Shown here: positions 7,552-19,088 of the stretch, in pieces
How positions within the stretch are numbered: the stretch's first letter is position 1
How the letters are laid out: each line of letters opens with the position of its first letter
Source of the DNA: Geobacter sp. AOG1
Lineage (GTDB): Bacteria > Desulfobacterota > Desulfuromonadia > Geobacterales > Geobacteraceae
Direction of reading: 5' to 3'
Assembly (NCBI RefSeq): GCF_019972315.1
Contig: NZ_BLIZ01000001.1
Coordinates: 1,500,513 to 1,564,512 of the forward strand
DNA: 64,000 nt
Made by a program: the position numbers and the translations under genes
Notes under the pieces: generated by a model
What the model was told of the DNA's origin: nothing
What the model saw: the letters and a program-made list of their open reading frames with translations, nothing else
Database searches by the model: none

Positions 7552-9396
7552 TTATATTCCTTGCCCCGCTTTCCCACCGTTGGTGGTTGTTGTGTCGCTC
7601 CGCGCGGCCCCCTTCTGCCAGCGTCCCAGGGCGATGGATTCGATGGCCGCTGCCAGGCCGAAGGCGAAGACGCTCAGCACCAACGGCATGCCGTGCGTGC
7701 CGAGAAGGTCGTAGAGGAAAACTTTCACCGCGCCGATGACGGTTACCAGGATGGCGACGTTGCGGATTTCCCTGTTGTTGCGACGCACGGCAAACAGCAT
7801 GAGGCCGGCGGCCGCGCTGGTAATAAGGATGGACTGGGCGCAGCGGAATGAATTGTTCACCTCCCCCGGAAGCATGACGATAATCTGGTAGATGACGTCC
7901 CTCAGCATGAAGAATCCGGTAGCCAGGGCCGCGAGCAGAAGCGCGACCGCGCTGTGGTCCCGTTGGTCGAAGCGTGAGAAGAAAGGGACTGTCGCGGAGG
8001 GAGCCGACCTGCGGGCCAGCTGGTAATGGAACAGGCTACAGACGGCGGCCAGACCTGCGGGGATGGCCAGCAGAAAATCGACACCTGCCGGACGGCTGCC
8101 GGTCAGGAAAATGGTCAACGCCACGGCGGGGTAGATCTGCAGCAGGTAAGAAATGACCCGGGTCCCCCCATTCTGCCATTTGCCCGAAATGATCATGAGG
8201 AAGAAGCCCGCTATCGATAGTGCCGGCAATGACAAGGGAAAGCTGCCGGATGCAGCGGGAAGGGCGAACGCCAGAAGGGTCGCACCGGCAAGAATGAACG
8301 CGTTTTCCCCCCTTCCCCCGGCCGTGTGCCGTCTGACCAGCCATGCCGCCAGCGAGAATTGGACGACCGCCGTGGCGATTCCCACCCATCCGAGCAGATG
8401 CTTGCTTCCCCCCCACGCGTTTACCACGTAGTATGAGTTGGCATACATGAGTGTCACATTGATCAGGGGAAGAAAGAAATCGAATCGGGATATCTTTTCA
8501 CTACCGGCGCGAACGATTCCCGTCAGCGCGATCCCGGCGAAGGTGACGGTTAAAATGGCGAGCACCGGGAAGAACCAGGAGAGCGCCAGTGCTTCCGGCA
8601 TCTGGTCGTGGCGTGCCAAGGGGAGCGTGAGCTTGAACGACCAGAGATAGAGCATCAGCATGCTCACCGCAAGAACGATCCAGCGGAGCCAGGAGCAGCG
8701 TTTCAGGCTGGTGGCAAAGAAGCCGAGCAGGTTGGCGGTCCAGAGAATCATGGCCAGGTAGGGGAAAAACGGGTTGGGGTAGTCGATTGCGGCGCCGGCC
8801 AGGCACATGCCGAGGGTCCCCACCGAGATAGGGACGAAGGCGGTGTAGCGGTAGCTGATCACCGCCATGGCCATGCCGGTTGCCATGAGTGTCAGGTAGG
8901 CGGGCACCAGGGGGAGGGACTGGAAGCGGGTATGGGTTTCCACCACGATCAGCGCCATGAGCGCTGCGCCGCAGGCGGCGAACACCGGTGCCAGTGGGCT
9001 TCCCTTGCCGTATTTGTACCAGCCGACCATCATGAGGATAGTCGCGTATGCCATGCCGAGAATCGAGCCGAGCAGGGTGTTGATGATGTTGTTGTCGGTG
9101 ATGGTCCGGAGGATGAGCGCCACCACGAGGAGGAAGCAGAGTGTGGAGAGGCGGGGGAGGAGAGCGGTCTTGCCGGCCCAGCTGAGAATCTCCTCGGTCA
9201 CTTCGTCGGGGGCGTCAGCCGAATGCCCGACCGGCTGGGTGGTCACGGTGGCGGGTTTCAAGGAGGGCGGGTGAACGACCGGAGTCGTTGTTGGCGTCAC
9301 GGCCAACCGGGCGGCCAACTGCTCCACCGTTGCCGTCAGAGCATGCACCTGGGCGGCCAGCTGTTCGACCCTTTTTTCGAGCGTGTCGTCTGCCAT
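7552..9396 (-). CDS. DUF2339 family polytopic membrane protein
   Basis: 614 aa from the ATG at 9396, which follows GGAGGGAAACC; a start 7 codons upstream has no such site. Residues 1-35 form a heptad-like coiled coil (LEKRVEQLAAQVHALTATVE), then a Thr/Pro linker. The rest is almost entirely hydrophobic, about 18-20 segments, the layout of DUF2339 predicted membrane proteins. Function is not known for the family. Its 3' end abuts palindromic element copy A, and its 5' side faces an AT-rich island. No neighbour suggests a pathway. Confidence 0.85.
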   Translation of the reverse strand: MADDTLEKRVEQLAAQVHALTATVEQLAARLAVTPTTTPVVHPPSLKPATVTTQPVGHSADAPDEVTEEILSWAGKTALLPRLSTLCFLLVVALILRTITDNNIINTLLGSILGMAYATILMMVGWYKYGKGSPLAPVFAACGAALMALIVVETHTRFQSLPLVPAYLTLMATGMAMAVISYRYTAFVPISVGTLGMCLAGAAIDYPNPFFPYLAMILWTANLLGFFATSLKRCSWLRWIVLAVSMLMLYLWSFKLTLPLARHDQMPEALALSWFFPVLAILTVTFAGIALTGIVRAGSEKISRFDFFLPLINVTLMYANSYYVVNAWGGSKHLLGWVGIATAVVQFSLAAWLVRRHTAGGRGENAFILAGATLLAFALPAASGSFPLSLPALSIAGFFLMIISGKWQNGGTRVISYLLQIYPAVALTIFLTGSRPAGVDFLLAIPAGLAAVCSLFHYQLARRSAPSATVPFFSRFDQRDHSAVALLLAALATGFFMLRDVIYQIIVMLPGEVNNSFRCAQSILITSAAAGLMLFAVRRNNREIRNVAILVTVIGAVKVFLYDLLGTHGMPLVLSVFAFGLAAAIESIALGRWQKGAARSDTTTTNGGKAGQGI

Positions 9397-9750
9397 CTGG
9401 TTTCCCTCCATGTGCACCGTCCGTGGAGTGGACGAGGGGGTCGCTGTGGCTGGGTGGTGTTACATTGTCAAATTCTTTAGCAATAAAACACAATCTATTA
9501 TTATATTTAATATGTTGTTTTTAACATTAATAAAATCATAACAATCCGTAATTAAACATGTTTATTATATAACATCTTTTTATTGCTTTGACTACTAGGA
9601 AATCGTTTTATGTCGATTTTGGGTAGAACGGTCGGGATCTTAGGTTGGGGAAAAAAGAGGGGGGTGCAGGAGATGAAACGATCCGGAGCGAGTGGTTGCC
9701 GCCGGTGACGGGGTTGAGGTGTGGTGGTCACTACCTGTGGCTGGCAGGCG
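9397..9750. other. Gene-free region with an AT-rich island
   Basis: Lies between the start of the DUF2339 gene and the 3' end of the carbonic anhydrase gene, both on the minus strand. About 9465-9600 is strongly AT-rich (runs such as TTATTATATTTAATATG), in sharp contrast to the flanking coding DNA, and contains an imperfect inverted repeat around 9509-9532. It probably holds the minus-strand promoter for the DUF2339 gene, but no hexamer pair is good enough to name. Confidence 0.5.
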
Positions 9751-10350
9751 TTAACGGTTTTTCTCGGTTTTGACGATCTTGATCTCCCCCGTCTGCATGT
9801 CATACACCCAGCCGTGGAGGTTGAGATTTTTCCCCTTCATGGCGTTTCTGACGAAGGGATACTCCTGGAGGTGCTCCAGCTGGAGGCGGACATTTTCTTC
9901 TACTATCAGTTCCATCCGCTTCTCCGTAGGTATCTCGATGTGGAGGGCGCGCAGTTTTTCGTCCACCCTCTCCTTGGCCTTGTAGGCATTGATCAGCCAG
10001 ATGGGGATGTACTTGTCGTCGCCGTTATCTTCGTCGAGGGCGGCGATCCCGCCGCAGCCATAGTGGCCGCAGATGACGATATCGGGGATCTTCAGGTGAT
10101 TGATGGAGAATTCCAGAACCGCTGACAGGTTCCAATCGTTGGTGGCGACGATGTTCCCCACGTTTCTGTGGGTGAACACCTCTCCGGCCCTGGTCTGGGT
10201 GATGGTGTTGACCGGCACCCGCGAATCGGAACAGCCGATCCAGAGGACGGTCGGCTTCTGGTCCTTGGCGAGGGAGGCGAAGAATGCCTTTTCCTTCTCG
10301 AACGTCTCGGCGACGAACCGCTTGTTCCCTTCCAGCAGGGTAGTAATCAT
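9751..10350 (-). CDS. can: Beta-class carbonic anhydrase
   Basis: 199 aa from MITTLLEGNKRF; an in-frame upstream extension lacks conservation and lies in untranslated sequence. The zinc-site motif CSDSR (about residues 40-44) and the HYGCGG motif (about 96-101, supplying His and Cys) are intact, as are the Asp/Arg pair of the active site and GEVFTHRNVGN. It interconverts CO2 and bicarbonate in the cytosol, supplying carboxylases and pH control. The gene stands alone on the minus strand. Confidence 0.95.
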   Translation of the reverse strand: MITTLLEGNKRFVAETFEKEKAFFASLAKDQKPTVLWIGCSDSRVPVNTITQTRAGEVFTHRNVGNIVATNDWNLSAVLEFSINHLKIPDIVICGHYGCGGIAALDEDNGDDKYIPIWLINAYKAKERVDEKLRALHIEIPTEKRMELIVEENVRLQLEHLQEYPFVRNAMKGKNLNLHGWVYDMQTGEIKIVKTEKNR

Positions 10351-10517
10351 GGCATACCCCCTTGCGCGCCCGTGATGAAGGAAGTGTACTACACCACGAA
10401 GGCGCGGCAAGGGGAGGTGCCAATAATTTAGCACGTTGTTTTAAAGGAAATCGGGTTTCAGATAATCACCAGCCGACGAAGAGTCTACGAAATGGGCGCT
10501 GAAATAGGGCGTTGTGG

Positions 10518-10808
10518 TCAGCCGGCGTAGTCGACTGCCGCGGATGCTGCCGTGACGCTCTTCATGTAGGGGAGGATTTCCCCTTCGTGGTAGGGGTGGA
10601 CCTGGTAGGCCTGCAGGTCCTCCAGGGAGTCGAAGCGGGTCACGAGGGCCAGGTCGTAGGAGCGTTCCGAGCGGATGACGTCAATCCCCACCTCCAGGTG
10701 GCGCAACTGGGGAACCTTGCCGTTCATGCTGAGAAGCTTCTCTTTCGTTGCGGCCAGGTTGGCGGCGGACTGGTCCTTGAGGCGGAAGAAGACGATGTGG
10801 GTAATCAT
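10518..10808 (-). CDS. Dabb family (stress-responsive alpha/beta-barrel) protein
   Basis: 96 aa. MITHIVFFRLKD at the N-terminus and VDYAG at the end are hallmarks of the Dabb dimeric alpha/beta-barrel family. HPYHEGEILPYMKSV (about 71-85) carries the conserved histidine. The start has AAAGGAG seven bases upstream. Such proteins form ferredoxin-like dimers; some have cyclase or stress roles, but most bacterial members, including this one, have no assigned reaction. It sits alone between carbonic anhydrase and ehrS. Confidence 0.85.
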   Translation of the reverse strand: MITHIVFFRLKDQSAANLAATKEKLLSMNGKVPQLRHLEVGIDVIRSERSYDLALVTRFDSLEDLQAYQVHPYHEGEILPYMKSVTAASAAVDYAG

Positions 10809-10907
10809 GGGAAACTCCTTTACGGTTGGTTTGGTCGTATGACGGGCGCACCATACCCCGGCCGGGGCGGCACTGTCAAGCGATGTATGGGGCTGTTTCT
10901 CCTGAAT

Positions 10908-10959
10908 CCGTAAGGGACACGCGGGCACATTCGCTCCACGAAACACTCACCCCTTACGG
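10908..10959. repeat. Inverted repeat overlapping the ehrS stop codon
   Basis: CCGTAAGGG (10908-10916) and CCCTTACGG (10951-10959) are perfect 9-bp complements 34 bp apart. The right arm includes the ehrS stop codon. It could act as a weak terminator for the ehr operon, although no T-tract follows on the minus strand. Confidence 0.4.
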
Positions 10960-11778
10960 AAGGTTATCTTCCAGTCGTCCGAGCATCCGGAGCAGGCCAT
11001 CGAGGATAGTGATGGGGTGGGGTGGGCAGCCGGGGATGTAGAGGTCCACCGGCAAGAGGCTATCCACGCCGTTATGAACTTCGGGTGAATCCATGAACGG
11101 ACCGCCGTTGATGGCACAGGCGCCGCAGGCGATGACCAGCTTCGGCTCCGGAACCGCCGCATATGTTGTCAAGAGCGCCTCCCGCATGTTTGCCGAAACC
11201 GGCCCGGTGACGAAAATTCCGTCGGCGTGACGCGGACTGGCGACGAACTGGATGCCGAAGCGTCCCAGGTCGAAGCCGACCGTGCTGAGCACGTTGGTAT
11301 CCGCTTCGCAGGCGTTGCACCCCCCGGCCGACACCTCCCGCAGCTTCAGCGACCGTCCGAAGAGCCCCCGCATCTTGGCGTCCAGCTTCTGGGCCAGCTT
11401 CCGCTCCATCCCTGCCGCGACAATCAGATCCTCCCGCCGGCTGGCGGCCAGCCGGGCTTCATTGCTGAACGAGACCGCCCCATGGGGGCACGCCGTGGCG
11501 CATTCGGGGCAGAACAGACACTTCCCCATGTCCAGAGACAGAGTGCCTTCCTGGTTATTATTGCCTTCCCGGTTCCGGGTCCCAGGTCCCGAGTCCCGAG
11601 TCCCGGAAGTTACCGCCCCATAAGGGCAGGCATCAACACAGAGCCGGCAGTCGGGGGGACAGCGTTCCGGCGCAAGGAGCGGATACCCCCGGAACATCTC
11701 CGGCAGCACCGCCGGCTCCGCCGGGTACTTGATTGTCCGGTGTTTCTGGTGGATGCGGGCGAGGATGGCTTTGAACAT
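10954..11778 (-). CDS. ehrS: Small subunit of Ech-hydrogenase-related complex (NuoI-like ferredoxin fused to NuoB-like domain)
   Basis: 274 aa. Residues 40-51 (CPPDCRLCVDAC) and 87-97 (CLFCPECATAC) bind two [4Fe-4S] clusters, as in HyfH/NuoI. Residues 150-270 form a NuoB/HyfI-type domain with GGCNACEAD (C154, C157), CGAC (C218, C221) and PGCPPHP (C251), which coordinate the N2-like cluster. This is the electron-transfer arm that docks on EhrL. It is the last gene of the ehr operon but is separated from ehrL by a cassette array. Residues about 57-80, between the two ferredoxin motifs, are a low-complexity insert encoded by GTCCCGA-type heptamers. The Ehr name rests on domain content. Confidence 0.85.
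   Translation of the reverse strand: MFKAILARIHQKHRTIKYPAEPAVLPEMFRGYPLLAPERCPPDCRLCVDACPYGAVTSGTRDSGPGTRNREGNNNQEGTLSLDMGKCLFCPECATACPHGAVSFSNEARLAASRREDLIVAAGMERKLAQKLDAKMRGLFGRSLKLREVSAGGCNACEADTNVLSTVGFDLGRFGIQFVASPRHADGIFVTGPVSANMREALLTTYAAVPEPKLVIACGACAINGGPFMDSPEVHNGVDSLLPVDLYIPGCPPHPITILDGLLRMLGRLEDNLP
11572..11606. repeat. Five tandem GTCCCGA-type heptamers inside ehrS
   Basis: GTTCCGG-GTCCCAG-GTCCCGA-GTCCCGA-GTCCCGG in unbroken 7-bp register. On the coding strand they encode the Ser/Gly/Thr/Arg-rich insert in EhrS. Similar heptamer tracts occur between hisB and hisH and between murB and ddl, so this looks like an intergenic repeat class that has entered a gene. Confidence 0.8.
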
Positions 11779-11801
11779 GGTGTGTTCCTGTTGATACGTG
11801 T

Positions 11802-11862
11802 GTTTGACGTCGTAGGGGCGCCCCAGCGCGTCAGCGTCTGTGTGCCGCCGCCCTGGTTGAAA
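11802..11862 (-). repeat. Degenerate attC-like site after the acetoacetate-decarboxylase-like cassette
   Basis: On the minus strand, TTTCAAC (11862-11856) follows the stop codon by one base and GTCAAAC (11808-11802) closes the site, 61 bp in all. Inside, AGGGCG can pair with CGCCCCT leaving one bulged base, and CAGaCGC can pair with GCGCTG. The R' box is one base off GTTRRRY, as expected for a decayed terminal site. Confidence 0.5.
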
Positions 11863-11863
11863 C

Positions 11864-12682
11864 TTACTTTTTCCCTTGTTTCAGATAGTCATAGATAACT
11901 TCGCCATAATCCACCGCTCCGTCTATGACCATATATTCCGCCTTCATAATCTCCACTACGGGAATGCTGCTCAGCGGATCGACACTAGACCCGCCCAGTT
12001 GCAATGTTGCTTTCCCCTTGTATAGCTCCTTCAGCGTGGTTTTCTGCATAAACGACGTCAGCTGCATGACATCGGGCGGGTCATTCTTCCTGACAGACGG
12101 AATGTACTTGAGGTTATACCTGGCCCTCGGGGGGCGTTGGACAACCGGCTCAACCTTCTCGCCTTTTTGGAAAGTCGCTTGCAGCAGCATTACGCCAAGC
12201 CGCTCCATGGTTACCGTTATCTTGCTCTGGTCTTCCACCATGGCAATGTCGGCCTCCTTCTTCGGGAAGCCCCAGATCTCCCGGCCGCTGATGGCTGGCG
12301 CGGTCTTGTTGAGGTAGAGAACGAGCGAATAACCGCCAGACCGTTTTTCGAAGTTCACCGGCACGACAAAACCGGCCTCCAGGTACGATTCGCCCTTGAA
12401 AAGTAGCTCGCCGTTCTGGTAGTCCGGGGTATTGAAGCGGCCAATGTAAAGTGATACGAGATTGTCCTTGTTCGGCGTCAACGGCTTGGGGACCAATTTC
12501 TGCAGAGCCTCGGCTGTGGTCTTGAAGGTAATTGATACCAGTTTTGAATCGTGGTATGTGCGCGGCGGAGTGCCGTATTCCGGCGCGAACAGCGGCATGC
12601 TGAAATCGGCAGCACAACATGCCTGGGTTGCGGCTGAGAAGAGGAAAAATCCAACCAGATTGGCCAAAAGTCTTCTTAGCAT
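11864..12682 (-). CDS. Exported acetoacetate decarboxylase-like protein (cassette gene)
   Basis: 272 aa. Residues 1-25 are a signal peptide (MLRRLLANLVGFFLFSAATQACCAA split by a short polar start), unusual for this family. The core has GREIWGFPKKEADI (about 132-145), which keeps the adjacent lysine pair that forms the Schiff base in acetoacetate decarboxylase, plus LYIGRF and an ADC-like beta-cone pattern. It may decarboxylate or cyclise a beta-keto acid in the periplasm; the substrate is unknown. AAAGGAG lies before the start. The stop is one base before a TTTCAAC box and the 5' junction is GTTGAAA, marking it as a cassette. Confidence 0.8.
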   Translation of the reverse strand: MLRRLLANLVGFFLFSAATQACCAADFSMPLFAPEYGTPPRTYHDSKLVSITFKTTAEALQKLVPKPLTPNKDNLVSLYIGRFNTPDYQNGELLFKGESYLEAGFVVPVNFEKRSGGYSLVLYLNKTAPAISGREIWGFPKKEADIAMVEDQSKITVTMERLGVMLLQATFQKGEKVEPVVQRPPRARYNLKYIPSVRKNDPPDVMQLTSFMQKTTLKELYKGKATLQLGGSSVDPLSSIPVVEIMKAEYMVIDGAVDYGEVIYDYLKQGKK

Positions 12683-12699
12683 ATTATGTTCTCCTTTTG

Positions 12700-12739
12700 T
12701 TTCAACGTCACAAGCCTGACCAGCGGGCGGTCACATGAA
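12700..12739 (-). repeat. Half of an attC-like site, truncated by a hairpin element
   Basis: Read on the minus strand, TGACC-GCCCGCT-GGTCA forms the central hairpin, followed by GCTTGTGAC and the junction GTTGAAA (12706-12700). The expected R'' partner TTCCAAC, predicted from the next cassette start, is missing. In its place is the inverted-repeat element at 12744-12813. Confidence 0.55.
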
Positions 12740-12743
12740 TAAG

Positions 12744-12813
12744 GGGGTCAGGGCTCAACTCTCAACACATACTGACTGAATCTGTCTCTTGTTAATGGTT
12801 GAGACCTGACCCC
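12744..12813. mobile_element. 70-bp hairpin element, MITE- or REP-like
   Basis: GGGGTCAGGGCTCAAC (12744-12759) and GTTGAGACCTGACCCC (12798-12813) are inverted copies with one mismatch, and pairing continues imperfectly inward (CTCAACA / TGTTAATG). The AGGGGTCAGGTCTCAAC end is of the kind found flanking REP-associated tyrosine-transposase (IS200-like) elements. No transposase is present, so it would be a non-autonomous copy. It lies within what should be an attC site. Confidence 0.6.
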
Positions 12814-12842
12814 TCTATGTTCCTTCCAGCTGGATGATCCTG

Positions 12843-13298
12843 TCAGCTCTTGATTATTCCTCTTTTTCGCCCTGGTATAAACCATGTGAATAGTAGCGCC
12901 TCTATGATCATCCTCAGCTTTTGACCTGCTGTATATTGCATCTCGACTCCCTCGTCGTCGATGCTGCTTTCAAGAAAATTCGAAATGATTTCTTTCGTGC
13001 GATCATGATCTTCCGGTGCAACCATAATCGTTTTCTTGTTGACTAGATCGATCTGCGGACCAACGCGCATGGAGCCAAAATAATCGTTTAACACAAAGTA
13101 GCGAATCTCGTCCGCATCCAGTAGGCCGCGAATCATTGAGAGCTCAAGTTCATCATTAGGAGAATAGAGGGCTATTGGTGGCTCCTCCGGTTTCTCGTCA
13201 TTCTCTGGTGGAGGCGGCTCATGTACAAGATTGCTGTCGCAGTCAGAGCATTTTGAAAAGCCGTCACGATATTCAGTTCCACATCTTGGGCAAAACAT
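12843..13298 (-). CDS. Zinc-ribbon plus DUF2007 protein (cassette gene)
   Basis: 151 aa. An N-terminal zinc ribbon CPRCGTEYRDGFSKCSDC (residues 3-20) is followed by a Pro/Glu-rich linker and a DUF2007-type domain (about 42-108: IALYSPNDELELSMIRGLLDADEIRYFVLND). The C-terminal segment (LRMIIEALLFTWFIP) may touch the membrane. DUF2007 is often described as a putative signal-transducing domain; no reaction is known. Codon use looks more AT-rich than in the ehr genes, consistent with acquisition. The cassette begins at the GTTGGAA junction (13321-13315). The attC that should follow the stop codon is broken by a hairpin element. Confidence 0.8.
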   Translation of the reverse strand: MFCPRCGTEYRDGFSKCSDCDSNLVHEPPPPENDEKPEEPPIALYSPNDELELSMIRGLLDADEIRYFVLNDYFGSMRVGPQIDLVNKKTIMVAPEDHDRTKEIISNFLESSIDDEGVEMQYTAGQKLRMIIEALLFTWFIPGRKRGIIKS

Positions 13299-13314
13299 CT
13301 CGATTTACCTTTTC

Positions 13315-13374
13315 TTCCAACGTTCAAGCTGAGGCACGCGGCGAAGCCGCGTTGCCTCTGGAGGATTGTTGGGT
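13315..13374 (-). repeat. attC-like site, 60 bp, after the alpha/beta-hydrolase cassette
   Basis: On the minus strand: ACCCAAC (13374-13368, a perfect RYYYAAC R'' box), then an arm GAGGCAACGCGGC, a TTC loop, GCCGCGTGCCTC, GCTTGAAC, and GTTGGAA (13321-13315). The arms pair with one bulge, the length equals that of classical 59/60-base elements, and the polarity agrees with the gene it follows. The last base of the R' box deviates from GTTRRRY. Confidence 0.7.
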
Positions 13375-13433
13375 GTCAATTCTCCTCCATCCCTTTCGCC
13401 AAGCATAGCCCAAAGGGCAAACCCGCTCGACGC

Positions 13434-14345
13434 TTACGGCCTCGACAAAAAAGCTCGAACGGCTGTGATCGTGGCCGATGGCGCTTCCTCCATCAACCAG
13501 TGCCCGGCATTCTTGACAACGACTTCGGTCACATCCGTGGCAGCGTTGCGCATCACCACGGCTTCATTAGCGCCGAACGACTTTTCGCCGCCAACAGCCA
13601 ACACGGGGATGGTGAGCTTCGTTTTCATTGCGACCTTATTGTCCTCGGCATCCTGCCGGATAGTGTTGAACTGAGCGAAGGCCGCATGCATGGCACCTGC
13701 ACGCGCATAAAGCTTCGCGTAGTGTGCCCGAGTGGCTTCGTCTATTTTCGTGCGATCGCCCGCGAATTCGTTCCAGAAGCGGTCGAGATAGATGCGCTCG
13801 CGACCGGCAACGAGCCGCTCCGCGTCCGGGCCGCCGAAATCAAAATGCCACAAAGCAGGCAGACGCACGATGGAGTCCCAAGGTGGAATGCCGGGAACCG
13901 GTGCGTCCATCACTACGAGTTTCTCGGTCTTTTCAGGGTAGCGCACCGCATAGGCGTAGGCGACCATCGTGCCGATGTCGTGCCCGACAATCGCAGCTCG
14001 GTCGAGTCCGAGTGTGGTCAGCACAGAGCGGATATCAGCGGCCTGTGTGCGCTTGTCATAGCCGCCGGCTGGCAGCGACGAGAGCCCCATGCCACGCAAA
14101 TCGGGCACGACAACCGTGTGGTCACGTGCGAGGTCTGCCGCAAGCAGTACCCACATGTCGCCTGTATCGCCGAACCCGTGTAGAAGGACTACGGCTGGGC
14201 CTTTACCGCCGACGCGCACGTGAAGCGTCGCGCCATCGGTCTGGATTTCCTGTGTTCGGAACGAGGGTGGATACGGCTTAACCTGTGCTGCCACCGGCGA
14301 TGTCAGGACCAGTATGCCTAGCGTGCCTAGAAGGAATTTGAGCAT
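13434..14345 (-). CDS. Exported alpha/beta hydrolase, epoxide-hydrolase/haloalkane-dehalogenase type (cassette gene)
   Basis: 303 aa from MLKFLLGTLGILVLTSPVAAQ, a signal peptide with GGGAGAGA upstream. The oxyanion motif HGFGDTGDMW (about 54-63), the nucleophile elbow GHDIGT with Asp as nucleophile (about 122-127) and the late His in NAGHWLMEE are present. An aspartate nucleophile and the cap region point to the epoxide hydrolase or dehalogenase side of the superfamily and away from serine esterases. Periplasmic; substrate unknown. It sits between two attC-like sites, and its base composition is nearer the host than that of the other cassettes. Confidence 0.85.
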   Translation of the reverse strand: MLKFLLGTLGILVLTSPVAAQVKPYPPSFRTQEIQTDGATLHVRVGGKGPAVVLLHGFGDTGDMWVLLAADLARDHTVVVPDLRGMGLSSLPAGGYDKRTQAADIRSVLTTLGLDRAAIVGHDIGTMVAYAYAVRYPEKTEKLVVMDAPVPGIPPWDSIVRLPALWHFDFGGPDAERLVAGRERIYLDRFWNEFAGDRTKIDEATRAHYAKLYARAGAMHAAFAQFNTIRQDAEDNKVAMKTKLTIPVLAVGGEKSFGANEAVVMRNAATDVTEVVVKNAGHWLMEEAPSATITAVRAFLSRP

Positions 14346-14385
14346 CTTCTCTCCCATTGTTGATAGACCAATCGCCATTCTTCAT

Positions 14386-14456
14386 GCCCAACGGCTCGGC
14401 ACATGACCCGCCCGCCCAGTTTTTCGGGCGGTCGGCGTCGATGTGTCTTGTTGGAA
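14386..14456 (-). repeat. attC-like site, 71 bp, after the DUF4145 cassette
   Basis: On the minus strand: TTCCAAC (14456-14450), GACACAT, GACCGCCC, a loop, GGGCGG..GGTC, ATGTGCC and GTTGGGC (14392-14386, a perfect GTTRRRY R' box). Outer CCAAC/GTTGG and inner ACACAT/ATGTG and GACCGCCC/GGGCGG pairs give the bulged hairpin expected for attC. It lies about 50 bp after the stop codon. Confidence 0.7.
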
Positions 14457-14505
14457 CCATCGTCTTCCTTTTTGAAATTTGGAGCTTTGAACTCTTCCTT
14501 CTCCC

Positions 14506-15150
14506 TCACTTAGCACCATCACGTTTTTCGATAGCCGTTTTGGCACCACCCGGCAACGCGTCATACATCTCTTGAATCCGAGCCGGAAGGGAAATTCTGT
14601 ACTCAACAATCACATTCACTAACGGGAAGAGTTGCTCTGCTACCTGAGTGTCGTTCGCATCAAGTTGTCCTGGGTGTACGGCGTTGTTTCCCGTTACGCG
14701 GACAACATCTAGCGCTTGCTGAATCTGTTGTGGTAGCCCTAAAGCAACGAGCCCAGCTATATCCTCGTTGATGTTTTTACCGGTTTGTCCTAAATGAACC
14801 ATGAGTTTTTGAATAGCAAGCCGAAGCAGGGCTGCAGCGCCACGGGGTGACTTTGTATAGATTCGAGCCGCTTCTTCATAATCTGATTGTACTTCCGCGG
14901 GCATATCAGGATTCGGTCTTGGAGCATTTCCTCTGTCAGGGAAAATATATGTGTCGCCGACCCATAGACAGTTGCTCCCACAGTTTTCGCATCGAGTAAC
15001 TCTCAAAGGTGCTATTTCGACATGTGATTCGGGGTAGACGCCTTGGCTGGCCTTATCGAGTTCGTAGCCCCATTTGTATTGGCGGGCAAGTACACCGCAG
15101 TGTGGACACGTAAAAGACTTGTGGTGAATGCTTGGAGCTATAAATTTCAT
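14506..15150 (-). CDS. Zinc-finger plus DUF4145 protein (first cassette gene)
   Basis: 214 aa. CPHCG (about 15-19) and CENCGSNC (about 54-61) make a split zinc finger. Residues about 95-205 match the DUF4145 pattern (SPRGAAALLRLAIQKL and VTGNNAVHPG), a HEPN-like helical domain often attached to restriction or other defence enzymes. No nuclease or helicase domain is fused here. GAGGTAACAG precedes the ATG. The cassette starts at the GTTGGAA junction 24-30 bp upstream and looks less GC-rich than its surroundings. A defence or nucleic-acid-binding role is possible but unproven. Confidence 0.8.
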   Translation of the reverse strand: MKFIAPSIHHKSFTCPHCGVLARQYKWGYELDKASQGVYPESHVEIAPLRVTRCENCGSNCLWVGDTYIFPDRGNAPRPNPDMPAEVQSDYEEAARIYTKSPRGAAALLRLAIQKLMVHLGQTGKNINEDIAGLVALGLPQQIQQALDVVRVTGNNAVHPGQLDANDTQVAEQLFPLVNVIVEYRISLPARIQEMYDALPGGAKTAIEKRDGAK

Positions 15151-15180
15151 CTGTTACCTCGTGTTATTTGGACTTCCAAC

Positions 15181-15347
15181 TAGTTGTTAGTAGGTTTCCC
15201 TATAAAAGTAACTTGTTTCTTTTATAGGTAATTTATCCCTTTTATAGGTAACCTGATTGATTACTTATATGAGTAATTTCTGCATCCAGAAATTCAGCAG
15301 GAATTCTCGCCCCCAGCACATCTTCGCCAGCAGTTGCCACGTTGCTG
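15181..15347. repeat. Repeat-rich, AT-rich spacer between ehrL and the cassette array
   Basis: CTTTTATAGG occurs twice in direct orientation (15219-15228, 15239-15248) and once inverted (CCTATAAAAG, 15199-15208). Two further inverted repeats follow: ATTACT..AGTAAT (about 15260-15276) and AATTTCTG-CATC-CAGAAATT (15275-15294). No gene is present. This is the 5' edge of the array, where an attI-like or secondary recombination site would be expected, but it does not resemble known attI sequences. Confidence 0.6.
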
Positions 15348-16868
15348 CTACAGATCGAACCCGCAGTACGACAGGTTGAAGCTCTTGTTGCAGAGGGGGA
15401 AGTCGGATATCTGCTCGTTTCTGAGGGCCAGGGAGAGGCCGGTCCAGTTGTGGAACGACGGGTCGGTGACCTTGTAGCGGGCGAAGCGCCCCGCCGCGTC
15501 GGTGATGGCGACGTGGCAGATCTCGCCCCGCCACCCTTCGGTCAGGGCCACTGCCACCATGCCACCGCCCGGCGGCTTCAGGTCGGTGCGGATATCCTTG
15601 CCGGGGAGCTGGCGCAGCTGTTCGGCGAGGAATTCAAGGGATTTTTCCGCCTCCATCCAGCGGACCAGGGTGCGGGCGTACACGTCGCCGGTGGGGGCGG
15701 TCACCACCGGTATCTGGCTCATCCGGAAGATGCCGAAGGGGTGGTCGCGGCGCACGTCGCGGTTGAGGCCACAGGCCCGGGCGGCCGGACCCACCAGCCC
15801 GATCTCCCGTGCCGTTTCGGTATCCACCCGGCCGGTCCCTTCGAACCTGGCCATGACCGACGGCGAATTCCAGAGGAGATCCACGGCGCCGGTGAGATCT
15901 TTCCTGGCCGCGTCGAGGCGGGCAAGAAGGTCGTCCTGTTGTGTGTGGCTGCAGTCGAAGCCGACCCCGCCGGGACGGATGAGCCCCCGGCCGAAGCGGC
16001 TGCCGCAGAGGACCGCGCTCATGTTCAGGAAGTCTCCCCGGATACGGCCGCAGTAGGATGCGGTGGGGAGGTAGCCGACGTCGCCGGCCAGCGCCCCCAG
16101 GTCGCCGGTGTGGTTGGCGAGCCGCTCCAGTTCCAGAGCGATGCCGCGCAGCACCTCGGCCCGGGCCGGCACCGGCATGCCGCCGAGGGCTTCAAGTACC
16201 ATGCAGTAAGCCTGGGTGTGGCCGACGGTGGTGTCCCCGGCGACGGTTTCCATCCGGTAGAGGGTGCGGGGGTGGGGGCCGCCCGCGAGTCCCGCCTCGA
16301 TTCCCCGGTGCTGGTAGCCGAGGGATATCTCCAGGTTGAAGACCTCCTCGCCGTGGCACTGGAAGCGAAAATGTCCCGGCTCGATGATGCCGGCGTGGAC
16401 CGGGCCGACCGCCACCTCGTGGACCTCCTCCCCCTCCACCCGGTAGAAATCCATGACGCCCGGGAGAATCGGTTCCCCCTCTTCCCGTCCCCACGCATCG
16501 TGCCCCGGCCGGAAAGAGCGGTGGAAACGGACCGGCTTGAGCCCGGGGTGGCCGTCGGGGAGAAGCCCTGTCTCTTCGGCGATCTCCCGCTCGAACAGGT
16601 GGAGTTGGGGGATGAGTCGGGTGAGGGAGGGGACGGCGTTGCCCTTGACCGTGGTCGCCATGATCCCCAGGAGCCCTTTCTTCTTGTAGGCGAGAATGGC
16701 ATAGAGATTGACCGTCTCGCCGGCCGAAGCCCCGAAGTAGGAGGAGACCCGCCAGCCGCCGTCGACGGCGTCGACGAGCTTCTGCAGAAAATCGTCGGTG
16801 GCAAGGAAGGGAATTTCCGTTAGGGGAAAGGCCTGGCCGTTATGGAAGGTGCGCAGGGACTCGGTCAT
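15348..16868 (-). CDS. ehrL: Large subunit of Ech-hydrogenase-related complex (NuoC-NuoD-like), NiFe ligands lost
   Basis: 506 aa. Residues about 10-140 resemble the NuoC/30-kDa domain; from about 150 on the NuoD/hydrogenase large-subunit fold is clear (GPVHAGIIEPGHFRFQ, GYQHRGIEAGL). In the L1 motif position, where NiFe enzymes read RICGIC, this protein reads METVAGDTTVGH (206-217), so both cysteines are absent. The C-terminus keeps CNKSFNLSYC. It should not bind a NiFe centre and is the catalytic-position subunit of an Ehr complex, likely reacting with an unknown donor or acceptor. ATGA overlap with ehrD upstream; its docking partner EhrS lies 3.6 kb away. Confidence 0.88.
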   Translation of the reverse strand: MTESLRTFHNGQAFPLTEIPFLATDDFLQKLVDAVDGGWRVSSYFGASAGETVNLYAILAYKKKGLLGIMATTVKGNAVPSLTRLIPQLHLFEREIAEETGLLPDGHPGLKPVRFHRSFRPGHDAWGREEGEPILPGVMDFYRVEGEEVHEVAVGPVHAGIIEPGHFRFQCHGEEVFNLEISLGYQHRGIEAGLAGGPHPRTLYRMETVAGDTTVGHTQAYCMVLEALGGMPVPARAEVLRGIALELERLANHTGDLGALAGDVGYLPTASYCGRIRGDFLNMSAVLCGSRFGRGLIRPGGVGFDCSHTQQDDLLARLDAARKDLTGAVDLLWNSPSVMARFEGTGRVDTETAREIGLVGPAARACGLNRDVRRDHPFGIFRMSQIPVVTAPTGDVYARTLVRWMEAEKSLEFLAEQLRQLPGKDIRTDLKPPGGGMVAVALTEGWRGEICHVAITDAAGRFARYKVTDPSFHNWTGLSLALRNEQISDFPLCNKSFNLSYCGFDL

Positions 16869-18298
16869 GGCCGCAGTTCCAGGAGCGCCGCGGCATCCAT
16901 GAGAAGTCGTCGAAGCGGTTCGGGGAGCCAGAGCCCGAGCATGAGCACGAGGAGCATGGTGGCCAGCGGGGGGCCAACGGTGAGGAGCCGGTCCCGGTAG
17001 GGGGTCCGGACCGTCTCCGCAGGTTCTTCTCCGGAAACGAGAGGGAGGACGGTGGAGGCCATACCGATGAAGATTACCGCCAGGAAGAGGAGGAACAACC
17101 CGCCGCTCACGTTTCTTCCCTGGATGAAGGCGCTGCTGACGATGGAAAATTCACTGAGGAACGGTGAAAACGGCGGCGAGCCGGTGATGGCGAAGAATCC
17201 GGCGAGGAACAGCCCCCCTGACCAGGGGAGCCGCCGCAGGACCCCTTTTACCTGGCTGGTGTTCTTGCTGTTGTAGGAGCGGTGGATGTTGCCCGACGAG
17301 AGGAAGAGCACTCCCTTGGTGAGACCGTTGTTGATGACGTGGAACAGGGCGCCGAACAGGGCCCCCTTCCCCAATCCCAGGGCAACGGCCAGTATCCCCA
17401 CGTGCTCGACACTGGAATAGGCGAGCATCCGTTTGAAATCGGACTGGTTTACCATGAAGACGGCGGCGAATCCCATGGAAATGAGCCCCATGATCAGAAG
17501 GGTATCGAGGAAGAAACCGGCATTACCGGAGGCAGTGCAGATCTGGTAGATCCGGGCGATGCCGATGAAGGCGCAGTTCACGAGCCCTCCCGCCAGAAGC
17601 GCTCCCACGAGTCCCGGTGCCTCGCCGTAGGCGTCAGGCTTCCAGGTATGGAGCGGCGCCAGCCCCATCTTGGTGCCGAAGCCGACCAGCAGGAAAATAA
17701 AGGCTGCCTTGAGCCAGTCGGGTGAGAGCTTGCGGGCCGAGGAGATGAGCGGCTCCAGGAGCAGGGTCGGTTCCTGGCCGGCGACGATGGTGGAGTAGGC
17801 AAGAAAGAAGAGCCCCATGAGGGCGAGGGCGATCCCCACGGAGCAGATGAGCATGTACTTCCAGGTAGCCTCGATGGAACGGGCGTTCCGGTTGAAGTAG
17901 ATGAGGGGGGCCATGGAGACGGTGGTGGTTTCTATGGCCACCCAGAGGAGCCCCAGGTGGTGGGCCGCGCAGACGAGTGACATGGCGGAAAGGCAGATGA
18001 GGAGCCCCGCGCAGAGCACGCGGTTGCTCCGCTCCCGGCGGTAGCCAAGATAGCCGACGGCGTAGACTGCGCAGACCAGGAACAGAACACTGATGCCGAG
18101 AAGTACCACCTTTCCCAGCGCATCCAGGTGTATCCAGTCGTTGGGTGAGGGGGGCGGAGTGAGGAGCAGCGCGTCGACGGTCAGGGCGGTATGGAGCACA
18201 CCGAACAGCGGCAACAGCAACGGCCGCAGCCGGTCGCCGGGGATGAGCCAGGCGATGAGGGCGCCTGCAAGAGGTAACATTATGAGAGAATACAACAT
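16865..18298 (-). CDS. ehrD: HyfF/NuoN-like antiporter-type membrane subunit of the Ehr complex
   Basis: 477 aa, about 13-14 membrane segments. Antiporter-family marks are present: a Glu in LLWVAIETTTVSMAPLIYF, a Lys in GFGTKMGLAPLHTWKPDAYGEAPGLVGALLAGG, and HVGILAVALGLGKGALFG later. Such subunits translocate protons or sodium in Complex I, Hyf and Ech. The gene overlaps ehrL by 4 bp. Upstream, a copy of the palindromic element separates it from ehrC, so it may have a processed or separate 5' end. HyfF-like assignment is by position and length. Confidence 0.85.
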   Translation of the reverse strand: MLYSLIMLPLAGALIAWLIPGDRLRPLLLPLFGVLHTALTVDALLLTPPPSPNDWIHLDALGKVVLLGISVLFLVCAVYAVGYLGYRRERSNRVLCAGLLICLSAMSLVCAAHHLGLLWVAIETTTVSMAPLIYFNRNARSIEATWKYMLICSVGIALALMGLFFLAYSTIVAGQEPTLLLEPLISSARKLSPDWLKAAFIFLLVGFGTKMGLAPLHTWKPDAYGEAPGLVGALLAGGLVNCAFIGIARIYQICTASGNAGFFLDTLLIMGLISMGFAAVFMVNQSDFKRMLAYSSVEHVGILAVALGLGKGALFGALFHVINNGLTKGVLFLSSGNIHRSYNSKNTSQVKGVLRRLPWSGGLFLAGFFAITGSPPFSPFLSEFSIVSSAFIQGRNVSGGLFLLFLAVIFIGMASTVLPLVSGEEPAETVRTPYRDRLLTVGPPLATMLLVLMLGLWLPEPLRRLLMDAAALLELRP

Positions 18299-18330
18299 TG
18301 ACTTATCCTTGATTTCTCAGGTGCTTACTT

Positions 18331-18448
18331 GAAATGTGGATTTTTTGCAAGGTCAAGGCGATCAAGGGATGACACGGAGACGTAGCAGCGCTACGTCGCA
18401 CAAGGAATCCCGAAGATCAACGCAGAGATTGCGGAAAAGCCGCATTTC
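18331..18448. repeat. 3'-flanking palindromic element, copy B
   Basis: GAAATG (18331-18336) and CATTTC (18443-18448) bound the element. Its core is ACGTAGC-AGC-GCTACGT (18380-18396). On the minus strand it starts one base after the ehrC stop codon, within the ehr operon. About four fifths of its bases match copy G at 46028 in the same order. Confidence 0.8.
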
Positions 18449-18449
18449 A

Positions 18450-19088
18450 CTATTCTTTCAGCGTAGTCAGGCGCGATGTGTCGATAGACGAAAACTCACG
18501 GCTGATGTGGTTGATGATGATTCCCATGACGAAAATGCCGACCAGCAGGTCGAGGAGCGCCCCCGCTTCCACCATGACCGGCATTGCTTCGGTCAGGAGC
18601 AGACCGAATATGAAGATGCCGTTTTCCAGGACAAGGTAGCCGATAACCTGGGTGATTGCCTTGCGCCGGGTGGTGAGAACGAGAAATCCGGTCAGCACTG
18701 TGGCTACGGATGCGGGAACGAACAGGAGCCCTTGGTGCGCCGGCGCCAGCGGCAGCTTCTCCGCGAAAACGAAGGCGAATGCCGTCAGGAGCGCGCCAAT
18801 TATGAGGGTTGTGACGTAGCCGACAAACGGCTCCGTTTCCCGGCGGATCTCTGCCTTGCGGACGGCGCCGGTGAGGAGCCAGGGGATGAGAAGCCCTTTG
18901 GCGAGGATGATGCCGACCATGATGGCCAAAAGGTGCCAGGAGAAGGGGTGGATAAGCCACGGAAGGAGGCCGAGGACCACCCCCTGGGCCGCGACGGCGC
19001 GGATGGCGAGGGCTATCCGACTCGAACCGAGGACGGCAAAGTTGATGAGCATGACGAGCACGAGGAGTTGGTCGGCAAAGGAACTCAT
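18450..19088 (-). CDS. ehrC: HyfE-like membrane subunit of the Ehr complex
   Basis: 212 aa with six to seven hydrophobic segments (LLVLVMLINFAVLG at the start, LLDLLVGIFVMGIIINHIS near the end). The C-terminal half has NuoK-like spacing (LVLENGIFIFGLLL, with a membrane Glu), typical of HyfE. Starts 6 bp after the ehrB stop with GAGGTAAG upstream. In group 4 hydrogenases this subunit sits between the NuoH-like and antiporter-like modules. Its 3' end abuts palindromic element copy B. Confidence 0.85.
   Translation of the reverse strand: MSSFADQLLVLVMLINFAVLGSSRIALAIRAVAAQGVVLGLLPWLIHPFSWHLLAIMVGIILAKGLLIPWLLTGAVRKAEIRRETEPFVGYVTTLIIGALLTAFAFVFAEKLPLAPAHQGLLFVPASVATVLTGFLVLTTRRKAITQVIGYLVLENGIFIFGLLLTEAMPVMVEAGALLDLLVGIFVMGIIINHISREFSSIDTSRLTTLKE

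Follow-up and report, generated by a model that had tools for sequence, protein, structure and literature searches.

How did four unrelated genes come to lie between ehrL and ehrS on the chromosome of Geobacter sp. AOG1? They occupy positions 11802-15180 of the stretch of 64,000 nucleotides that was analysed here (the window), in a genome consisting of a single contig of 3,677,207 bp; "ehr" is an operon name which we take over as a label from an earlier reading made without database searches (the sequence-only reading). Integrons are usually described as one attI site beside one integrase gene (intI), and clusters of attC sites lacking an integrase (CALINs) as degraded integrons. The sequence-only reading took the four genes for a CALIN. 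That description stands as far as an integrase-less cassette array is concerned and falls short of the locus because the upstream edge of the array has the build of the attI sites that lie beside real intI genes; with such an attI-like edge, the array is better understood as an integrase-less platform. Our preferred reading, to which we give a probability of roughly 80%, is that a putative attI and four cassettes form an integrase-less integron platform between ehrL and ehrS that runs with the operon, that this platform is one of six or seven attI-like platforms in AOG1, and that such platforms recur in Geobacteraceae.

The cassettes and their leader

The 3.6 kb between ehrL and ehrS are filled by four minus-strand open reading frames (ORFs), which the sequence-only reading called unrelated and which have the Pfam domains ADC, DUF2007, Abhydrolase_1 and DUF4145. 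The stretch 11802-15180 reads as a four-cassette integron array with every cassette on the minus strand. Cassette 1 (14392-15179) holds the DUF4145 gene (14506-15150) and attC1, and runs from TTGGAA to its own R'' box TTCCAAC. Cassette 2 (13321-14391), with an alpha/beta hydrolase gene (13434-14378; Abhydrolase_1) and attC2, runs from TTGGGC to ACCCAAC. Cassette 3 (12706-13320) carries a zinc-ribbon DUF2007 gene (12843-13298); of its attC a half site is left, with the R' box GTTGAAA at 12700-12706, near an inserted hairpin element. Cassette 4 (11808-12705) holds an acetoacetate-decarboxylase-like gene (11864-12682; ADC, 190 bits), whose product is exported in the view of the sequence-only reading, and the terminal attC4, and runs from TTGAAA to TTTCAAC.

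The attC sites were scored with two models derived from intI-bearing arrays of related genomes, the window being excluded from both: R1, from 11 attCs picked by hand out of 16 seeds (five were left out because they aligned poorly), and R2, from 52 attCs. Looser hand-made finders supplied the seeds, and short calibrations lie behind the E-values of all models. An attC model search, of the kind that the sequence-only reading had proposed, gave 61.5 bits with R1 (E 3.7e-12) and 59.6 bits with R2 for attC1 (14386-14456, 71 bp, fold z -3.0), which was the sole R1 match in the window at E<=5. In attC2 (13315-13374, 60 bp, fold z -4.4) the R boxes and the hairpin fit and the inner part is unlike the model, so that its R2 score (9.4 bits, E 0.31 in 3.8 kb) is not significant by itself. 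The terminal attC4 (11802-11862), with R' GTCAAAC and running into the ehrS flank, reached 18.2 bits with R2 (E 0.0022 in 3.8 kb, 0.17 in 291 kb) and was no more stably folded than its shuffles (z 0.05). With filters off, R2 returned 21 matches up to E 10 between 11600 and 15400, the top three of which were the proposed attC sites. The claim of attC-like hairpins or remnants at the cassette borders stands firmly for attC1, rests on fold and R boxes for attC2, is marginal and without a stable fold for attC4, and comes down to a half site in cassette 3; the claimed agreement in polarity between sites and genes was borne out, all attC sites of the array lying on the minus strand. The default of IntegronFinder 2 for a CALIN is at least two attCs (PMC9024848). 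The array offers one strong and one marginal match to our own models, and under that default the CALIN label is borderline.

The sequence-only reading had further stated that the first bases of a cassette are complementary to the R'' box at its own 3' end, and this rule is sound. In cassettes 1, 2 and 4 of the window 4, 3 and 4 of the four variable bases match the cassette's own R'', against two or three in cross pairs, and such matching of cassette ends is the mark of a circular intermediate. In related arrays, where all 120 attC hits at E<=0.01 were used and neighbours 150-1100 bp apart were paired, the 65 resulting pairs had a mean of 3.22 matches of 4 between cassette start and own R'' (36 perfect); shuffled pairs had a mean of 1.70, and 0 of 5000 shuffles reached the observed value. 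The two ends of one and the same attC gave a mean of 1.61 of 4, with one perfect match in 114. A hand-made finder that demanded an R''/R' match inside one site missed the window sites and was discarded, that demand being wrong in principle because each attC joins the ends of two separate cassettes. Among 168 array or platform loci compared, proteins related to the DUF2007 protein are found as cassettes in other arrays: in an intI-bearing integron (L125), between attI and the first attC (64.7% identity over 116 aa), in an intI-less array (L278; 61.9% over 105 aa) and in an integron of Geomobilimonas luticola (L019; 30.6% over 85 aa). In the same loci the ADC and DUF4145 proteins had no match, and the hydrolase had one, outside any array.

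Upstream of cassette 1, and 70 bp behind ehrL, lies the attI-like site (15175-15277, minus strand). Its leader consists of four imperfect 18-bp palindromes (15277-15260, 15252-15235, 15232-15215 and 15212-15195) spaced at 0, 25, 45 and 65 bp, followed by CTAACAACTAG^TTGGAA or, read from the last palindrome onwards, CCTACTAACAACTAG^TTGGA, with the expected cut between 15180 and 15179. A BLAST search of the genus with this leader led to a second one at 712.6 kb of the same genome, adjoining attC sites (E 1e-7, the match stopping a few bases at most from the junction). An attI model, R3, was then derived from leaders with a clear register, defined by maximal palindromicity; 29 of 53 were selected and one without GTT (L240) was removed, leaving 28, with the ehr copies excluded. 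The build is constant over these 28 selected leaders, with 18-bp palindromes at 0, +25 (26 in some), +45 and +65 and then the core. R3 scores the ehr leader of AOG1 at 61.4 bits (E 3.8e-9), the match ending at the cut, and that of G. luticola at 36.7 bits (E 1.7e-4). In both its core (TAAYAAC.AG^TT or close) and its spacing the ehr leader equals the attIs that adjoin intI, and a core TCAATAAYGAG^TTG is common to the ehr leader, the 712.6-kb leader and the leaders of the true intI platforms of G. luticola and the related genome G002. A palindrome score of at least 22 of 36 pairs was reached by 35 of 53 leaders as compared to 20 of 960 random stretches. Sequence, architecture and register thus match the family attIs beside intI, and we regard the upstream edge of the array as attI-like.

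The ehr junction in related genomes

It had been said beforehand that finding these four genes between ehrL and ehrS in distant relatives would speak against an inserted array. A tblastn search (E<=1e-5) of the 80 best among 330 related ehrL loci, with flanks of up to 6 kb and some shorter, gave no match to any of the four cassette proteins, and this includes the nearest named relative in the scan, G. luticola (Geobacteraceae; locus L022), whose EhrL is 94% identical. ehrS lies downstream of ehrL in 71 of these 80 loci and was not seen in nine, often on account of a contig end. The gap between the two genes is 8-236 bp in 64 of the 71, 877-945 bp in six and 2,767 bp in G. luticola. In 958,345 bp covering 79 ehr loci from other genomes, neither R3 nor R2 with default filters had a match at E<=1. 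By this comparison, the array is not ancestral content of the ehr operon.

AOG1 and G. luticola have the junction in common and nothing in their inserts. The 3,120 bp that lead to G^TT match at 91.6% identity, similarity ending at +1 in the former and at -1 in the latter, and 86.4% identity resumes beyond the inserts of 3.37 kb and 2.56 kb, between which blastn found no match (E<=1e-5). The G. luticola insert starts at the same putative attI and has other genes inside. The stretch from ehrL to the cut measures about 170-180 bp in both species and holds no intI, and because of this the contents of the ehr junction appear to have changed without an integrase in cis. A full intI is present in G. 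luticola away from ehr, and the simplest agent of the change would be an IntI encoded elsewhere, as it is in that species. A second intI-less platform gives a similar picture: contig C11 of G001, the genome taken to be that of G. luticola, and contig C1 of G002 match at 83.4% identity for 9,198 bp, as far as +11, and are mostly unlike beyond, with stretches of 57 bp and 588 bp still similar. The variable cassettes begin at G^TT, similarity ending at +1/-1 at ehr and at +2 to +11 at other platforms.

Platforms, integrases and a small gene

The absence of an integrase, noted earlier for the window, extends to the whole AOG1 genome, in which no integron integrase exceeds the cut-off (best TIGR02249 match 91.6 bits, cut-off 265). 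R3 places platforms at 247.6, 712.6, 1515.7 (ehr), 2154.5, 2907.8 and 2925.6 kb, with a weak seventh at 1726.8 kb (E 0.06), and every one of them has attC hits downstream. AOG1 has 18 R2 attCs and contributed no training site. Six platforms are found in G. luticola, five and a weak sixth in G002, and six in the related genome G003; AOG1, G003 and the related genome G006 have several platforms yet no intI. In 48 genomes of the family, R3 has 105 matches at E<=1e-4, distributed over 34 genomes and including at least two echoes, and 21 intI genes occur in 18 genomes; R2 attCs are present in 43 of 47 genomes, some of them sources of training sites.

At one AOG1 platform a lost intI has left a scar. 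The region 2.903-2.908 Mb corresponds to the intI platform of G002 with 85.6% identity up to 2906793 and 92.2% from 2907265, and the segment in between (locus L175) holds a 33-bp remnant of intI beside 432 bp of other sequence containing a short ORF, which we take to resemble a four-helix-bundle protein (23S rRNA intervening sequence). The platform retains the small gene described below, the palindromes, the attI and the attCs. G. luticola's own intI platform has only 643 bp (71.5%) in common with this region.

A gene of about 117 codons precedes many attIs (alignment of 36 sequences) and has 94 matches in 35 of the 48 family genomes. Among the best 48 of these 94 copies, 12 lie beside intI and 36 do not. 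Counting R2 hits (E<=0.01) that lie up to 6.5 kb downstream in the gene's orientation, attCs follow 20 of the 36 copies without intI (19 of 25 where 1.5 kb or more was available) and six of the 12 linked to intI (six of ten). All 120 attC hits around the small genes have the gene's orientation and lie downstream of it, 105 at up to 6.5 kb and 15 farther away; upstream, where 0.9-8.5 kb were available, or on the opposite strand, none was found at any of the 48 copies. The ehr platform has no small gene in cis. The small gene reached no cut-off in Pfam or NCBIfam (DUF5710 stayed below it, and a match in NCBIfam was attributed to chance), had nothing better than E 0.15 in PHROGs or at E<=1 among PDB sequences, and with one query found no match at E<=1e-3 in plasmid and phage collections. 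An AlphaFold2 model of the protein has a pLDDT of 94 and a pTM of 0.56, and its fold could not be assigned by Foldseek (best E 0.59) or VIA-align (best Z 4.1 over 45-50 residues). At E<=1e-15 the gene occurs in five of 198 genomes drawn across the phylum, two of the same genus, two of another family of the order and one from elsewhere in the class. The four loci from the other family have R3 matches, one of them also an intI (L281) and another attCs (L282); the fifth locus (L284) has no R3 match. Our guess is that the small protein binds DNA, and we propose the palindromes as its target because platforms differ both in palindrome and in paralogue.

The 712-kb platform of AOG1 (L170) and its counterpart in G. 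luticola and G002 (L171/L172) have only about 245-260 bp in common, the end of the small gene and the leader, so the small-gene-plus-attI module may itself have moved between loci. In draft genomes, the contigs of loci L226, L229, L234, L246, L248, L174, L243 and L251 stop 120-680 bases past the small gene, as if the platforms were repeats that break assemblies.

Taken together, these observations suggest a sequence of events. Cassettes would have entered the ehr junction through recombination between attI and attC at G^TT, carried out in trans by an IntI encoded elsewhere, such as G. luticola still has, and the AOG1 array would now be frozen, intI having been deleted. The cassettes may be expressed by read-through from the ehr operon or from a promoter yet to be found. 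In the weakest step, the four palindromes might be operators for the protein of about 117 amino acids encoded upstream of many attIs. Extended to the family, we lean slightly towards a distributed integron, in which one integrase, or none after its loss, would serve several chromosomal attI platforms, each with its tandem operators and often with a dedicated small DNA-binding partner. Capture would then take place simultaneously at many loci, including host operons such as ehr whose transcription would express the cassettes.

A less probable explanation, though the strongest of the rivals, is that intI-less platforms are ordinary decayed CALINs, that is complete integrons which have each lost their own adjacent intI with no action in trans. 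This is what happened to an adjacent intI at the 2.907-Mb platform, and one of the 36 intI-less copies of the small gene (L241) keeps a 53-aa intI remnant. A tblastn search (E<=1e-3, up to 2.5 kb upstream) found a remnant in that copy only, a count which argues weakly against decay because scars such as the 33 bp at 2.907 Mb escape tblastn. The stronger point is the ehr junction, where two species have a common intI-free leader of about 170-180 bp and no common cassettes.

It seems improbable that the ehr cassettes were inserted at a chance secondary site of the attG type and resemble an attI-headed array by coincidence. Cassette insertions at attG have been reported (Loot et al. 2024, as cited in the accessible text of PMC12901181 and PMC12444791) and, like the ehr array, place cassettes outside a main platform. 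Seven attC-bearing loci of AOG1 (L177, L178 and L180-L184) have no attI match at E<=0.5 (L181: 0.51) and are candidates for attG-type insertion or for worn leaders. The ehr target differs from attG in resembling an integrase-linked attI: the R3 match there (E 3.8e-9) runs to the cut, and the leader is similar to that at 712 kb. That there is no integron at all, and that a genomic island or phage-like insertion carries hairpins mimicking attC, would fit the poor model scores of three of the four attCs and is very hard to reconcile with attC1 at E 4e-12, own-cassette matching, the break in similarity at G^TT and the relatives of the DUF2007 protein in intI-bearing arrays.

Several observations weigh against the ehr stretch being an integrase-less platform in the sense preferred here. 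One of the four attCs is strong by model and the other three are weak or broken, and DUF2007 is alone among the four cassette proteins in having relatives in the compared arrays. The G. luticola ehr insert (L022, 7700-10240) has no R2 match at E<=10 and may therefore hold decayed cassettes or something else, and the unlike contents of the two junctions could have arisen by differential loss from a longer ancestral array. Taken by itself, the palindrome-spacing score does not single out the ehr leader, as four other places in the window tie with it at 22 of 36. All 28 training leaders of R3 were drawn from the 48 genomes that it later searched. Palindrome sequence differs among platforms with pairing retained in 80.2% of cells (shuffled 60.8%, slid 31.6-46.2%) and a covariation score of 0.543 versus 0.270, in a test that favours the palindromes, since palindromicity decided the choice of register and 28 leaders were picked from 53; for the same reason the comparison with random stretches is the fairer control. 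Further pair types within the palindromes were not exceptional (113 of 500 shuffles reached the count). Sixteen of the 36 intI-less small-gene copies have no attC, ten of them with less than 1.5 kb of sequence. Sequence comparison establishes the attI architecture, the cassette anatomy, the absence of intI with its scar and the unlike contents past the cut in two sister species; from these we infer cassette recombination at the ehr leader.

Precedents and minor features

With CALINs in general the ehr array shares attC-bounded cassettes and the lack of a nearby intI, and it differs from them in a recognisable attI-like head with a conserved four-palindrome leader. The one precedent in the accessible literature is the Shewanella prophage M16-3, where the attI at the head of a CALIN is of the same type as that of a complete integron elsewhere in this prophage (PMC9892861). 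Because of this precedent a lone attI-headed CALIN is less new. The Shewanella case is a single one, within a prophage and beside a complete integron with an intact intI (PMC9892861), whereas in Geobacteraceae the platforms are chromosomal, number several per genome, occur family-wide and come with palindromic leaders and a small gene. In Xanthomonas, a few recurrent chromosomal loci outside the ilvD integron harbour intI-less cassette clusters (PMC12444791), and loss of intI that leaves attCs stranded is known both in Xanthomonas (PMC12444791) and in Treponema phagedenis (PMC3607928), intI being lost or inactivated in some lineages. These clusters are likewise intI-less, and no attI is described for them in the accessible text (PMC12444791, PMC3607928). 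As compared to the sedentary chromosomal integrons of the relatives (G001:C37 in G. luticola and G002:C16), the ehr array is alike in attI core, leader spacing, attC type and a related cassette protein and differs in having neither intI nor small gene and in being one of several platforms per genome.

Complete integrons have been reported in more than half of the strains of a Geobacteraceae subclade (PMC11434368), and G. metallireducens and G. lovleyi are each reported to have two or more intI genes (PMC2426708). No description of intI-less attI platforms in Geobacteraceae was found in the accessible parts of the open-access literature, PMC8876359 included, nor is anything said there about the palindromic leader, the small gene or multiple attI platforms on one chromosome, and the many-platform pattern remains unreported in the open-access literature searched. 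If CALINs can have an attI of their own and change their cassettes with no integrase in cis, the capture of genes would be dispersed along the chromosome, and finders whose attI detection is limited to class 1 would miss such capture sites. What can be offered is a family-wide definition of attI by four spaced palindromes and a core, a candidate for an accessory protein, one that stays below the cut-offs of Pfam and NCBIfam, and a natural case of cassettes that appear to have been placed inside an energy-metabolism operon.

The array is flanked upstream by the ehrL-like gene (15348-16868, minus strand; Complex1_49kDa, 94% identical to that of G. luticola) and downstream by the ehrS-like gene (10954-11778, minus strand; Oxidored_q6), in an operon whose genes around the array have Complex1_49kDa, Oxidored_q6 and Proton_antipo_M domains by Pfam. 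The place where the attC of cassette 3 is expected is occupied by a 76-nt hairpin element (12741-12816; GGGGTCAGG..CCTGACCCC; fold z -5.9). It is near-perfect and resembles repetitive extragenic palindromes (REP) or miniature inverted-repeat transposable elements (MITE), and a simple pattern search with its arm found no further copy in 14 loci of the same genome or in the rest of the window. The sole Rfam match in a scan of 9000-19000, mir-27 for this hairpin, was below threshold and was dismissed as chance. A promoter scan of 11600-15400 placed none of its sites within the leader and yielded five sigma-70-like sites where 2.6 were expected.

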